Assembly: GCA_037178625.1 (NCBI GenBank) | Contig: CM074140.1 | Span: 310,001-374,000 of the forward strand | From: Skeletonema tropicum | Taxonomy: Eukaryota; Bacillariophyta; Thalassiosirophyceae; Thalassiosirales; Thalassiosiraceae | Direction: 5' to 3' | DNA length: 64,000 bases | In this document: positions 303 through 59,325 of the stretch, piece after piece | How positions within the stretch are numbered: position 1 is the first letter of the stretch | How the letters are laid out: every line of letters starts with the position of its first letter | Notes under the pieces: generated by a model | Database searches by the model: none | Seen by the model: the letters and a program-made list of their open reading frames with translations, nothing else | Told to the model about the DNA's origin: nothing | Translations under genes and position numbers: made by a program

Positions 303-1704
303 TCAAATGGATTCTTTGTGGAGCCACCAAGCATCCTCGCTCTCAATACGGCCTTTCTGGTTTCAGCTATAAGCGGGGTTCCAGACGCTCACCCGCCCCG
401 TACGTAGAACTCTGGTACAAAATCCACGTCAAAAAAAATCGACGAAACGGGACGGGCCCTCTTCCCGCCAATTTTTTTATTAGTGAAATGCTCTAACTTT
501 GGGCCATGATGGCCAAAATTAAGTTTTGGGGGGTTGTTTCATATGCTTTTCCAGTAGCACCATCCTTTTGTCAACCGTAATGGGGGTTCTATACATATAC
601 TGGTTGGCCGATAATTCCAAATCCCCGCTGAGAAATGCATGTGAGATTACACTAGGTTTTTGCTAGACAAATTTGGCCGGCCATCAGCCATCACAACTAG
701 CATGAAGCTAGAGGGTACCTTCGAATGCATATCTCGACGAAAATATACGCTTTCATCACATACCCAGCAGGGTATATACTCACATAATAGTCACCTAAAG
801 GATAGTATCTCGGGACTAGCATATAAACCACTTCCCTGAAACTTAATTTTGGCCGCTCAGACCCAAAGCTAGAGCGTTTCACTAATAAAAAAATTGGCGG
901 GAGGGGGGTCCGTCCCGTTTCATCAAGGTTTTTAATTCCTACAGGTACAACTCAATTCCTACGGTGAGCGGATTCTACGTGAATTTTGTACCAGTGGAAC
1001 CTCGCTTATGGTAAGGAACCATTTTGAAAACTGTACCTCAGTACAGTTTTCGTGTTGGGCCCAGTACCCGTAGGCATTGAAAACTGTACTTCGGTACAGT
1101 TTTCAAACTCAACTTTGTTAGCGGGCAAAGCTAGGCAGCTCCTAACGGCATTTTTTCAAAAAACCTTTAGCCCTTGTACGCAATAATAAGACCTATAGGC
1201 CACATGACGTGTAATGCTTTATTCACACAAATATCACGAGGCCTATTACCTTTTTTGAAAACTGTACCGAGGTACAGTTTTGCCCTTCACGTAGAAACAT
1301 ACCAGAGGTCTACGCAAAACTGTACTGAGGTACAGTTTTCAAAAAATGGTTGGGATATGCTCCCATCTCCAACTTACAGAGCGATCTTGTCTCGCCTGCT
1401 CCGCCAGGACTACACCTACGCATCGACGTCTGCAAGTCTGCACCTCGAGCATACAGGCTGGTTTGAGTAAATGAGCAATGCCAATCCAGAAGCCGCTATC
1501 TTCTTCGGACACAGAATCACTTGCACGAGCTTGGAGGACATCTCGCTTGATGTTGCGTTTCATAGATTTGTACTCTGCCTTGGTGTACCACAGCTCGTTG
1601 ATGCCCTCGTGCCGCTCAACTATGTAAAGCTGTGATGTTACGGCAAATTTCACAACGTCATGGTTGCGCTTGGGAGGGAAGTCTACGATCAACTCAGCGG
1701 CCAT
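303..1704 (-). CDS. Conserved diatom protein, main exon 1378-1704, interrupted by two small mobile elements
   Basis: The minus-strand frame starting at 1704 reads as a real protein: RIVERxxGxNELWYTKAEYKSMKR-like core (here 'IVERHEGINELWYTKAEY'), then 'ACMLEVQTCRRRCVGVVLAE'. I recognise this as a diatom-specific hypothetical family of unknown function. A consensus donor GTAAGT lies at 1377-1372, directly after codon 109 (phase 0), so the last codons before the stop at 1339 are probably intron. An acceptor CCAG ends at 357 and would join in frame to 356-303, giving 17 more residues and a stop, about 126 aa in total. That intron would be about 1 kb, against the usual 60-170 bases here, and would hold both mobile elements (372-1006 and 1017-1358). 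The alternative is a gene truncated by insertion. The main exon is well supported; the second exon is inference. Confidence 0.5.
372..1006. mobile_element. 635-bp inverted-repeat element (MITE-like), TA-flanked
   Basis: The two ends are long imperfect inverted repeats of roughly 165-185 bases. Outer ends read AGCGGGGTTCCA at 372 and TGGAACCTCGCT at 995-1006. Both arms contain 'ACGGGACGG', a TCCCGCCAA/TTGGCGGGA block, an A/T run and 'GGCCAAAATTAAGTTT'-like sequence. A TA dinucleotide flanks each end (370-371 and 1007-1008), as for Tc1/mariner-type MITEs. There is no open frame that could be a transposase. Superfamily assignment is inference from the TA flanks. Confidence 0.75.
1017..1358. mobile_element. 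Palindrome-core element, copy 1 (core ACTGTAC)
   Basis: An inverted-repeat element with ends AACCATTTTGAAAAC (1017) and its partner at 1336-1351, followed by GGGATAT. It contains four short palindromes, two near each end, all with the stem AAAACTGTAC: 1026-1051 (loop CTCA), 1077-1106 (loop TTCG), 1258-1281 (spacer CGAG) and 1316-1339 (spacer TGAG). The middle (about 1107-1250) has no coding potential but aligns with the middle of the copy at 40181-40513, for example 'CAAAAAAC' followed by 'TAGCCCTT'. The extreme left end (the TATCCC seen in the other copy) is missing or diverged here. Confidence 0.8.
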
Positions 1705-39967: not shown

Positions 39968-40180
39968 TTTCAATATAATATTGTGTCGTCTTGGTTGCCT
40001 TGAACCACTTTCACTTGATTTATTTGAGCCGTGCTTTGTCTTGGCTTGATTGTTGTTCTTGCTTCCGTCCTGAATGAACCGTTGAGTTCGCGATCGACCA
40101 CGGCGGTTCACGGCGACGGTTAGCGTCTCTTGGACTTTTTGGAAAAAGTCCAATAATGTGACATAAATAAGTCTATTACA

Positions 40181-40513
40181 TATCCCAACCATTTTGAAAA
40201 CGGCAGTGTTTTCAAGTTGTGCTCAGTACCCATAAGGCTTGAAAACGGCAGTTCACTGCCGTTTTCAAAGCTAGAGCGAGTAGAGTGCAGCTCCTTTTGT
40301 GTTTTCCCCTCAAAAAACATGTAGCCCTTCAACGCAAGAAAGTAACTGAAGGCCACACATCACACTAACTAAATGTTATGTACTTATTTGCGTGAGGCCC
40401 AAAGGCTTTTTTGAAAACGGCAGTAAACTGCCGTTTTGCCTCTCACGTAGAAACATACCAGAGCTCTACAGAAAACGGCAGTAAACTGCCGTTTTCAAAA
40501 AATGGTTGGGATA
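40181..40513. mobile_element. Palindrome-core element, copy 2 (core CGGCAGT)
   Basis: Terminal inverted repeats TATCCCAACCATTTTGAAAAC-like at 40181 and the complement ending GGTTGGGATA at 40513. Palindromes: 40241-40266 (GAAAACGGCAGT, TC, complement), 40414-40437 and 40471-40496 (both with an AA spacer). The leftmost, 40195-40212, is collapsed to GAAAACGGCAGTGTTTTC. TAAGTCTAT at 40168-40176 and 40514-40522 looks like a 9-base target duplication, with TACA between the left copy and the element. It lies just upstream of the membrane-protein gene. Confidence 0.82.
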
Positions 40514-55696: not shown

Positions 55697-56620
55697 ATGA
55701 CGACGCAAATCATTCTGCCGAGAGAGATTCATTCTGCTCAGCCGGAGCCGGCCGGCGTCGAAGGTGTCCCTCCTCTCTCAGGAAAATCGCTGCTAATGCC
55801 ATCAAGGAAGAAGGCCAAAGGCAAGGCAAGGAGAGCCGCCAAAGAAGCTGCAAAAGCAAAAGAGAGCCAGACAGCGGTAGCGGTAGCGGTGGCGACCAAT
55901 CAGGAGGAGGAGGGATCGCTTGAAGCGCAGATGCAGCGACTGCAGATCATCCATTCCACGTCGATGAATTGCGACCATGGAATGAGTTTCATATCACCTC
56001 GTGACGAGAAGGTTTGTCAGGATTTTATCAACGCATTCCTTGACGCACTCTATTCACAGGACAGCAATGCAAACGTGATGGATGCGTTCCTCGTAGCGGG
56101 CGAAACCATAGAAGAAAAATTTTCCGACGTCTATAGTTCCAAATTGGAGACTGTCGTTTCAATGCTTTTATGCAGTGGGACGGAATGTATTCTCGAAGGG
56201 CATGATTACGAGAAAGCTAGGATCTACGCTACTTTGGCCTGTCACTTCGAGGAATTGATAGCAGTGTTTGTGTCCAAAACTAAAGCTGCTCTTAGTTGGG
56301 CAAAGGTAATTGAATTGGGTGATGCTAAAGCTGATGACCACACACTGATTAGATTTCTGATGAAGCGCATTCCTTGCTCTTGCCTGGACGGCAAATACAA
56401 AGAAGTAAAGTCCGTGAAGAAGATGGGCTGGTGCTACAACCCAAGCTGCAGCAGGCCGAATCAGATGGCGGAACGCAGCAAGATGTTCTGTTGTGCACGG
56501 TGTGGTGAGGTGAACTATTGTTCGACTGAATGCCAGAAGGCCGACTGGAAGAGTCACAGGGAGGCATGTGACAGAATGGCGAAGAGGAAGGCTGCATTTG
56601 CTTCTGAACAGCAGCCATGA
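55697..56620 (+). CDS. MYND zinc-finger protein, intact (307 aa)
   Basis: The longest intact cluster member. The basic leader common to the family ('MPSRKKAKGKARRAAKEAAK') begins at residue 34, so translation may start at 55697 or internally. The middle is helical ('VCQDFINAFLDALY', 'LEELIAVFVSKTKAALSWAK'). The MYND finger at about residues 247-293 has every ligand: 'CYNPSCSRPNQ', 'CCARCGEVNYCSTECQKADW', 'KSHREAC'. MYND fingers bind proline-rich partners and are often in chromatin or signalling proteins, but this diatom family has no known partner. It lies 410 bases upstream of a same-strand paralog. Confidence 0.85.
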   Translation: MTTQIILPREIHSAQPEPAGVEGVPPLSGKSLLMPSRKKAKGKARRAAKEAAKAKESQTAVAVAVATNQEEEGSLEAQMQRLQIIHSTSMNCDHGMSFISPRDEKVCQDFINAFLDALYSQDSNANVMDAFLVAGETIEEKFSDVYSSKLETVVSMLLCSGTECILEGHDYEKARIYATLACHFEELIAVFVSKTKAALSWAKVIELGDAKADDHTLIRFLMKRIPCSCLDGKYKEVKSVKKMGWCYNPSCSRPNQMAERSKMFCCARCGEVNYCSTECQKADWKSHREACDRMAKRKAAFASEQQP

Positions 56621-57030: not shown

Positions 57031-57894
57031 ATGACGCCATCTAACCATTCTCAACGGCTCGGTATGGTAGGCATCCCTCCTCCCTCTAGAGCATCAGCAG
57101 CTTCAATGCCGTCGAGGAAGAAAGCCAAAGGCAAGGCGCGTAGGGCGGCTAAAGAAGCCGCCAAAGCAGTGTTGGCGGCCAATCAGCTGCAAGAGGGTTC
57201 TCTCACATACGGCACAGCTAAAGCGCAGCTGCAACAAAGGCTGGAGCTCTGCAAGCACGGTGGTCCTGTATTATCACGTGATGAGGAGGAGATTTGCCTG
57301 GATTTTATCGACGCATTCATTACTGCATACAATGCAGCTGGAACCGACGTGGGGGGATCGTTCCACACAGCGTTTGAAGTCACAAAAGCAGAATATGCCG
57401 ACGTGTATTTTTCCGATTCGAGGATGAAGGCAATTATTTCAGTGCTCTTGTTCTGTGGGACACAAGATATCCTCGACGGCGACAAAAAATCTGCTTGCTT
57501 CAAGGCTCAGTTTGCCTGTTACTTCGAGGAATGGACCGCGGTCAGCCAGCGCGAAACCAAAGCTGTCGTGAGTTGGATGAAGGTATTTGCATTGGTCGGA
57601 GCAGATGACCACACACTTGTTAAATATTACAGGAAGCGCATTCCGTGTGGCTGCCTGGACGAGAAGTACAAAAAAGTCAAGTCCTTGAAGAGGTTGAGCT
57701 TTTGCTGCAACCAAAACTGCAGCCAACCTGGAGGGAAGGTAGAGCACAGCAAAATGTTCTGTTGCTCCCAATGTGGCGAGGCAGACTACTGTTCTATAGA
57801 ATGCCAAAAGGCCGACTGGAAAAGACACAAAGGTGTTTGTGTGAGCCTTGCGGAGGTGAAGGCTGCATTCAGGTCTAAACAATCATTATGCTGA
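57031..57894 (+). CDS. MYND zinc-finger protein, intact (287 aa)
   Basis: A second intact paralog. The basic leader 'MPSRKKAKGKARRAAKEAAK' starts at residue 26, so a start at 57106 is also possible. The middle differs most from the other copies ('DFIDAFITAYNAAGTDVGGS'). The MYND finger at about 225-271 is complete: 'CCNQNCSQPGG', 'FCCSQCGEADYCSIECQKAD', 'WKRHKGVC'. Paralogs at 22796, 36885 and 55697 share the order leader, helical region, 'DDHTLV', 'KRIPCxCLDxKYK', finger. Function unknown. Confidence 0.85.
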   Translation: MTPSNHSQRLGMVGIPPPSRASAASMPSRKKAKGKARRAAKEAAKAVLAANQLQEGSLTYGTAKAQLQQRLELCKHGGPVLSRDEEEICLDFIDAFITAYNAAGTDVGGSFHTAFEVTKAEYADVYFSDSRMKAIISVLLFCGTQDILDGDKKSACFKAQFACYFEEWTAVSQRETKAVVSWMKVFALVGADDHTLVKYYRKRIPCGCLDEKYKKVKSLKRLSFCCNQNCSQPGGKVEHSKMFCCSQCGEADYCSIECQKADWKRHKGVCVSLAEVKAAFRSKQSLC

Positions 57895-59325
57895 TGCTGC
57901 GCAAGACAATGAGGGTGATAAATGCGCGTTCTCTTCTCAAGAACACCTCTACTATGTCCATTGCAAAGCATTGAACTGCATTATTGACCAAATCTAATTT
58001 TAAATATTGATAGACAAGTTTTTGCCGAACATTACGATAGGGTATCATATATAGTAATAAGTATTGCATATGCATGAGATCCACTAGAGTAATTCTTACA
58101 TCTCAACCTGATTAGACGGTGAATTCGAAGAAAAATACTCTCTCTAACAGTCGATCAATTGATCAACAAACCAATCCTATCATCAGATGTGGCAGATGCT
58201 TGCTGCCACGGCAAATCGACGCACGTTCGATGATAAACCAGATCTAAGACCTTCTCCAAAAGTATGTAGGCCTTCTTGCTCCATTTGTCGTAGTCAAATT
58301 GTTGGATGACATTCGCATGTCAATCCTCTACAGAAGCAGTACCGTGCGCTGGTCCGGGCAGAAAGAATGAGAGATCGAGGGATGGAGAGGGATACTTACA
58401 TAATAGTCTTTCGGATACAATAATTGGCATGTTTTCCCACGTAGAAATGCAGCTCCCGCCTTATGTCCTAGCAACGTTCGAATTACCATCCAGAATAGTA
58501 ATACAAACACATTGATGGAATTGAAACAACTGTCTTCAACCTGTGGAAGGATGCCTGCTGTGCATGGCACACTCCGGTGCCGGTGAACGCATCCACCGCG
58601 TGTTCTCGTGACATGAATGATGAATTCCATGCAATTTCAAATCATCGGCTCAAAACGTAGTAAAGGAGCTATTCATAATGGCATTGTTTTGAGGACGTAC
58701 AATAGCGTTGATGTGATTGTCAGTCATTGCAACTGCGACTGCACTTCAAGAGATGCTCCAAGAGCAAGAGATCCCCCTGCACCTGCTGCTGCTTGGCCGT
58801 TATTAGCTGATTCTATATTATTAGGGACATTGTCGGTGACTCGCCTTTCTTGCCACGGCATTTTTCACTGGGTTATCTCTTGTCCCGAGCCGTTTTGGCA
58901 GGTCGTCATTGTGCTGAGCTATCAGCTATTCTTCTAAGCGCTGCATGCAGTTGCTGAGCTTCAACATGCTTAGATTAAGCATGGTCGCGTCGGTGATAAG
59001 AAAAGAGTTAGTTGGAGGAGTTAATTTTTTCAATATGAATATGTAGTCGCCAGTCGGCATTGAAAATGAGGTGCAAACTCAATGGGACTAATTCCGCATG
59101 CAGTTTTCTATCTTCAATGTTTAGGCCTGTCCGAGAGGACAAAGAATGACGCACCGTGATAAGGCTATTTCTTGAGAGTCAAAATATACATAATAGCAAA
59201 GACAAACAATGAAGTCATTACCTACATACTTCCGCCTATTTGTCAAATCTACTTATCTACCTAGGCCTGGTTGTTTGGAGTTGGCAGTCGCTGCACTGCC
59301 AACTGTTTTGTTTATTATCAGAATC
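57895..59325. other. Intergenic region
   Basis: 1.4 kb without a supportable gene. A 106-codon frame at 58617-58937 has no recognisable motif and sits among many equally short frames, so I do not call it. Confidence 0.45.

Follow-up and report, generated by a model that had tools for sequence, protein, structure and literature searches.

In a family of non-coding inverted-repeat elements of about 335 bp, two copies of which lie in the window (the whole analysed stretch of 64,000 nucleotides of Skeletonema tropicum DNA), the arms of all palindromes within a copy are nearly always matched to one another, and they differ between subfamilies as a set. Each copy carries four 24-bp palindromes (H1 to H4) in which 10-bp arms surround a 4-nt centre. 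The initial annotation had noted the matching in the two copies of the window, and a search of the genome (78.4 Mb in 125 contigs; loci are given as contig:position, e.g. C6:2273700) showed that it is general. Two or more perfect hairpins were present in 94 copies or half-copies, and in 91 of these the readable arms were all alike; fewer than 94 are independent, as some interrupted elements contribute more than one half-copy and segmental duplication accounts for some of the copies (C14:2411229 and C117:120202, for example). Among copies with four perfect hairpins the arms were uniform in 37 of 39, compared with a mean of 0.98 and a maximum of 5 in 10,000 when arms were shuffled among copies within each slot. 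Both counts took perfect hairpins only, imperfect ones being excluded. Twelve main 10-nt arms were found, namely AAAACTGTAC, AAAACGGTAC, AAAACGGCAC, AAAACGGCAG, AAAACGGCAT, AAAACGGCAA, AAAACGTTAC, AGAACGGCAC, AAATCGGTAC, AAATCGGCAC, AAATCTCCTT and AAATATCCTT; a thirteenth, AAAACGGTAT, was present only in H2 of two copies.

The coordinates of the two copies in the window are collected in Table 1. All four palindromes of the first (the window copy) have the one arm AAAACTGTAC, and its ends and middle sequence are common to the second (the sister copy), both as originally described. The description of the sister palindromes as all alike is right for H2, H3 and H4 but holds for only half of H1, so that strictly three and a half are alike; H1 is whole in several copies related to the sister copy. 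The ends required a similar correction, the usual form being ATATCCCAACCATTTT(TT)GAAA. The sister copy has both ends in this form, but the window copy is without the left TCCC, which has become AAGG at positions 1013-1016. Nine hairpins with an arm of at least 10 and a loop of 3-5 were found in the window, seven of them in these two copies, whereas 20 mononucleotide shuffles of the window gave at most one each.

Table 1. Positions of the two family copies in the window, their palindromes and their flanking TA dinucleotides.
Feature	Position	Strand	Arm or sequence	Centre	Remark
Window copy, AAAACTGTAC subfamily	1017..1355	+			usual ends judged from 187 ends
Window copy palindrome H1	1027..1050		AAAACTGTAC	CTCA	
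Window copy palindrome H2	1080..1103		AAAACTGTAC	TTCG	
Window copy palindrome H3	1258..1281		AAAACTGTAC	CGAG	
Window copy palindrome H4	1316..1339		AAAACTGTAC	TGAG	
TA at right end of window copy	1356..1357				inside ATAT; probable target duplication, judged from flanks
TA left of sister copy	40181..40182				probable target duplication, judged from flanks
Sister copy, AAAACGGCAG subfamily	40183..40511	+			both termini present
Sister palindrome H1	40197..40212		AAAACGGCAGTGTTTT		8 nt lost at centre, left arm alone kept
Sister palindrome H2	40242..40265		AAAACGGCAG(T)	TTCA	
Sister palindrome H3	40414..40437		AAAACGGCAG(T)	TAAA	
Sister palindrome H4	40472..40495		AAAACGGCAG(T)	TAAA	
TA right of sister copy	40512..40513				probable target duplication, judged from flanks

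The contrast between the cores of these two copies arises because they belong to two subfamilies. In an unrooted tree of the backbone, from which the palindrome columns had been removed (55 copies with recognisable ends, 249 columns, 9 arm types), each of the nine arm types made up a single side of a branch; the exceptions were AAAACGGCAC and AAAACGGTAC, both of which starred branches compel to occupy two places. The arm type changed 9 times on this tree, where the minimum is 8 and the shuffled mean 34.0, and the same grouping by arm type had been obtained in a first FastTree of 60 copies. Within each subfamily the readable arms were alike, bar three mixed copies. This means that the core is not swapped freely from copy to copy but tracks the subfamilies defined by the backbone. 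The initial annotation had also allowed for the two-copy contrast being a mere subfamily effect; that is true of the two copies, but the concerted replacement of eight arms remains real and has recurred over the tree. A founder effect alone, by which each subfamily came from one master and inherited its matching with nothing special about the arms, would account for the grouping of arm types on the backbone tree. We consider this very improbable, since inheritance gives constancy within a subfamily and not the same eight-arm change in each founder lineage, and there are twelve main arm types to account for.

Cores that vary at the same rate as their flanks had been named at the outset as a sign of a chance or subfamily effect. 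Among the subfamily consensuses, ten of eleven had arms differing at 0-3 of 10 positions, a range comparable to the 0.092-0.323 by which their backbones differed. For the AAATATCCTT arm the difference was 5-7 of 10 positions at a backbone distance of 0.204-0.362, and this arm has moved faster than its backbone. The unusual feature of the family is therefore the concertedness of the change more than its rate.

Within subfamilies, where the backbones of copies differ by about 1.7%, the arms were the more conserved part. In eight subfamilies (56 copies) there were 29 substitutions in 4268 arm sites, some of which may be misaligned indels, versus 230 in 13443 backbone sites, with H4 of the AGAACGGCAC subfamily counted as backbone (Fisher p 1.6e-7); the centres had 22 substitutions in 833 sites. 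Indel events were about 2.1 times denser in the hairpins (34 in 5101 sites) than in the backbone (43 in 13443; Fisher p 0.0019). Both p-values are optimistic, since copies share ancestry and some are segmental duplicates. The geometry was also constrained. Of the 55 copies, 26 combined four perfect arms with 4-nt centres; among these, the start-to-start spacing of H1 and H2 was 53 bp in 23 and that of H3 and H4 was 58 bp in 24, while H2 to H3 varied from 167 to 204. Small insertions recur at palindrome centres across subfamilies (for example C13:1754184, C1:775342, C9:2254186 and C20:1495274), as if the centres break.

The 4-nt centres did not share the uniformity of the arms. In the 39 copies with four perfect hairpins, of which 37 had uniform arms, the centres were uniform in 10, or in 20 if orientation is ignored, and the four centres of the window copy (Table 1) are carried on one arm sequence. 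Sequence is thus kept in the arms more than structure. This bears on the proposal that the hairpins act as structures in single-stranded DNA or RNA, for instance as targets of a structure-specific nuclease, so that paired changes just preserve the stem. Symmetric changes within a hairpin, the near-constant palindrome size of 24 nt and the denser indels in hairpins would all fit such a role, but preservation of a stem needs no common sequence across four separate hairpins, and no Rfam family was found at gathering thresholds in positions 900-1500 of the window. We therefore hold a structural role to be improbable.

The fixed spacing, the palindromic form, the lower number of arm mutations and the identity between sites together argue for a sequence-specific protein that binds all four palindromes. 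We propose, with moderate confidence, that the matched palindromes are sequence-specific binding sites which co-evolve with the protein that reads them and which are partly homogenised by template switching. The family would be a non-autonomous, MITE-type DNA transposon that, as its flanks suggest, inserts at a TA within ATAT, and each end would combine two palindromic sites, a set distance apart, with a short terminal repeat (TCCCAACCATTTT...). A sequence-specific protein, most likely the transposase that mobilises the element, is predicted to bind all four palindromes. Since one protein must recognise all of the sites, a mobile lineage would keep the same sequence in its eight arms, and any change in what that protein prefers would be followed by the replacement of all eight. 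A new arm would start when a single hairpin changes symmetrically, and would then spread by short template switches between the arms, which are identical and complementary to each other.

The three mixed copies bear on how such a replacement might proceed. Mixed cores within one element had been named at the outset as evidence against concerted change, and 3 of 94 copies are indeed mixed, but they look like intermediates. The copy at C6:2273700 has CGGCAT in H1, H3 and H4 and CGGCAC in H2. The centre of its H1, TTTG, is the same as the centre of a similar left end (L096) whose arm is CGGCAC, as if the arm of H1 had been replaced and its centre retained. The other two, at C6:3054040 and C3:4220027, have a common symmetric change in H2 alone. 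From these copies the order of events (one hairpin, three, four) can tentatively be proposed.

The idea that hairpins copy one another is favoured by two further observations. In the AAAACGGCAC/TTTT subfamily an inverted 11-nt H2 flank (GTCGGAGTAGC in the consensus) precedes H3, and at C3:4299918 the centre of H3 is AAAA, the same as the centre in the abutting neighbour element. The flank of H2 at H3 and the seemingly borrowed centre are read as traces of template switching at hairpins. The orientation of the centre also flips between copies. These observations, together with the denser indels in hairpins, would be expected from neutral homogenisation, in which no sequence is recognised and any mutation is spread through the element by template switching or gene conversion between hairpins during replication or transposition. 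However, conversion of whole hairpins should have homogenised the centres as well as the arms, and the fixed 53- and 58-bp spacings and the lower substitution rate of the arms are left unexplained. In resident single copies, moreover, the arm mutations as judged by eye were mostly one-sided (for example C15:447351 H4, C18:735132 H3 and C9:2632320 H1), and fast automatic copying is therefore not apparent there. We regard homogenisation without recognition as rather unlikely.

A more specific form of the binding-site reading is that the palindromes make up a specificity code that can be exchanged. A single element body would have been re-keyed repeatedly (twelve keys) to different recognition proteins, each new key being written into the eight arms by template copying from hairpin to hairpin, which would act on the arms alone and not alter the centres. 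We offer this as a possibility that we hold doubtful. If true, it would represent templated, arm-restricted concerted evolution of transposon recognition sites. Co-change of a transposon and the specificity of its reader is usually seen at its endpoints only; here a dozen variants of a single element, in close subfamilies, occur together in one genome, with a fixed geometry and three apparent intermediates. The twelve arms also represent a natural library of palindromic sites.

The family was delimited in several ways. With the window and sister copies as BLAST queries there were at least 90 and at least 78 genome matches, from the best 40 of 166 and the best 40 of 161 candidates, respectively. 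The genome contains 186 exact matches to the 16-bp end ATATCCCAACCATTTT, versus 0 for the reversed pattern. In the 183 of these ends that were listed, the next base was T in 99 and G in 84, and the T- and G-continued forms are the two ends of the element. Among 59 pairs of adjacent exact ends, 44 span 280-380 bp (a measure that includes the ATAT) and 15 are longer; one of the longer pairs joins two separate elements, and most of those fetched were interrupted copies or composites. The ends at C11:358049-363945 come from two different subfamilies. The palindrome pattern AAAACKGTAC-N4-GTACMGTTTT fits 130 genome sites, versus 0 when read backwards, and a census of the right-end pattern gave 62 places (control 0), in 80-letter sequences that show H3 but not the full H4. 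Solitary palindromes at C3:4058079 and C10:2122163 (two) proved to be fragments of family elements. In viral contigs, 86 stretches contained the 16-bp end, and at the 80 loci checked no hairpin with an arm of at least 8 was found within 70 nt, so these matches are probably due to chance; prokaryotic genome contigs had 0 matches to ACGTAGAAACATACCAGAG. Three exact 16-bp ends also follow one another at intervals of 1536 bp (C15:1928515, 1930051 and 1931587), and the one of these that was fetched, C15:1928515, has no hairpin beside it.

Outward of the terminal CCC the bases were T in 187, A in 186, T in 182 and A in 173 of 187 ends, with no clear preference beyond. Both flanks were ATAT in 41 of 52 two-ended copies, and in 7 of the remaining 11 both still had TA. 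Judged from these flanks, TA is probably duplicated on insertion within an ATAT target. A 4-bp duplication of ATAT with later mutations, with which the 41 copies are equally compatible, is less likely. The 3-bp duplication typical of PIF/Harbinger elements was found in 0 of 52 copies with the boundary at CCC/GGG and in 2 of 52 outside ATAT, and the 8-bp duplication typical of hAT elements in 0 of 52 at either boundary. CACTA elements have ends that begin with CAC; such ends were absent here, the family ends being (ATA)TCCCAACC. At six loci (C3:4299915, C4:873096, C6:2330503, C13:1215334, C15:2184112 and C18:735430) copies abut end to end through one common ATAT, as though the ends of older copies served as insertion sites for newer ones. 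The abutment motif GGGATATCCCAACC had 18 strand hits, some of them against other sequence.

The family resembles Stowaway MITEs and the IS630-Tc1-mariner group in being short and non-coding, with terminal inverted repeats, a probable TA target and a preference for AT-rich sites, but its ends differ from those of the one mariner-like element of this genome that was read, and to our knowledge four matched palindromes are not a defining feature of Stowaway. In the IR/DR arrangement of the Sleeping Beauty type, each end has two recognition sites at a fixed spacing, as in the present family, but those sites are not known to be palindromes, whereas here each is a palindrome of 24 bp. Matched subterminal motifs that differ between related elements also have precedents. 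The TNPA motifs of CACTA (En/Spm) elements and the AAACGG motifs of Ac/Ds occur several times near both ends and differ between related families. Some arms of the present family contain AAACGG, but both CACTA and Ac/Ds elements have other terminal repeats and another target duplication, and here the sites are palindromic, at fixed positions. In the VANDAL/VANC system of Arabidopsis, sets of non-coding anti-silencing motifs and their reader protein have diverged jointly among related transposons; those motifs are many, dispersed and read by an accessory protein, in contrast to the present elements of about 335 bp with their four palindromes. The kind of pattern seen here would thus be known in outline from the subterminal motifs of other transposons, while a series of twelve with intermediates appears unusual.

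An autonomous partner was sought among DDE transposases of three families, mariner-type DDE_3 (PF13358, 13 places), Harbinger-type DDE_Tnp_4 (PF13359, 47 places) and pogo-type DDE_1 (PF03184, 44 places). None was recognised as cognate when their positions were compared by eye with the listed ends and a few sequences were read; the ends were exact 16-mers, 183 of 186 being listed and paired and part of them fetched. The ends of the one PF13358 element that was read differed from those of the family, and the PF03184 place noticed nearest to a family copy was about 2.8 kb off (C3:4634768). Two PF13359 places lie near a family end, and both resemble insertions into copies. The first, at C3:1642118, is 98% alike to C6:3141050 over 3.77 kb. 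The shared part begins directly after TTA at both places and at C3:1642118 adjoins the left end of a AAATCTCC-type copy, whose remainder was not seen within 5.5 kb; since the shared stretch starts after TTA beside this left end, it is taken for an insertion into the copy. At the second, C6:2331805, Harbinger-type pieces follow a broken AAATCGGCAC-type copy. The long end pairs C6:2328515 (2.0 kb), C9:2632273 (3.5 kb), C22:776315 and C15:241007 read as copies interrupted by other sequence, as does C14:2409129 (2.0 kb), which has a pair of the same length at C117:118103 beside an alike copy; in the long pair C10:515626-519010 the left end has no hairpin. C21:218637 and C51:113374 show the same truncated end, beside unrelated ORFs, the two stretches being identical over the 454 bases compared. 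The cognate autonomous element may no longer exist, may be missing from the assembly or may end in sequences unlike the exact 16-mer.

An ORF resembling hAT transposases, which lies beside or inside some copies, was also considered as the partner and rejected as part of a separate, abundant element. It was found at C16:226642 and elsewhere, with 150 scored places, a length of 478 aa in many of them and, in most, 100% identity over the 71 aa searched, and its DUF659 match is below Pfam's cut-off. This hAT-like element is recently amplified and has also inserted into some family copies. At C14:411514-411580 (about 215-281 of L078), the palindrome AAAGAGACGTCTCTTT is repeated three times in tandem, almost without differences, just outside the part of a mariner-like element that shows 99.8% identity between the three places compared.

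In the window itself there are other strong palindromes at 2416-2445, 59279-59304 and 40130-40153, the last about 30 bp left of the sister copy. Between about 11480 and 19000 ORFs recur some 3 kb apart (11483, 14481 and 17471; 12051, 15035 and 18039), which suggests a tandem triplication. A DUF6824 domain, an ankyrin-kinase gene and weak matches to reverse transcriptase that stay below Pfam's cut-off suggest a eukaryote, perhaps a diatom. The neighbouring MYND-finger ORFs at 55697-56620 and 57031-57894 are possibly a tandem duplicate.
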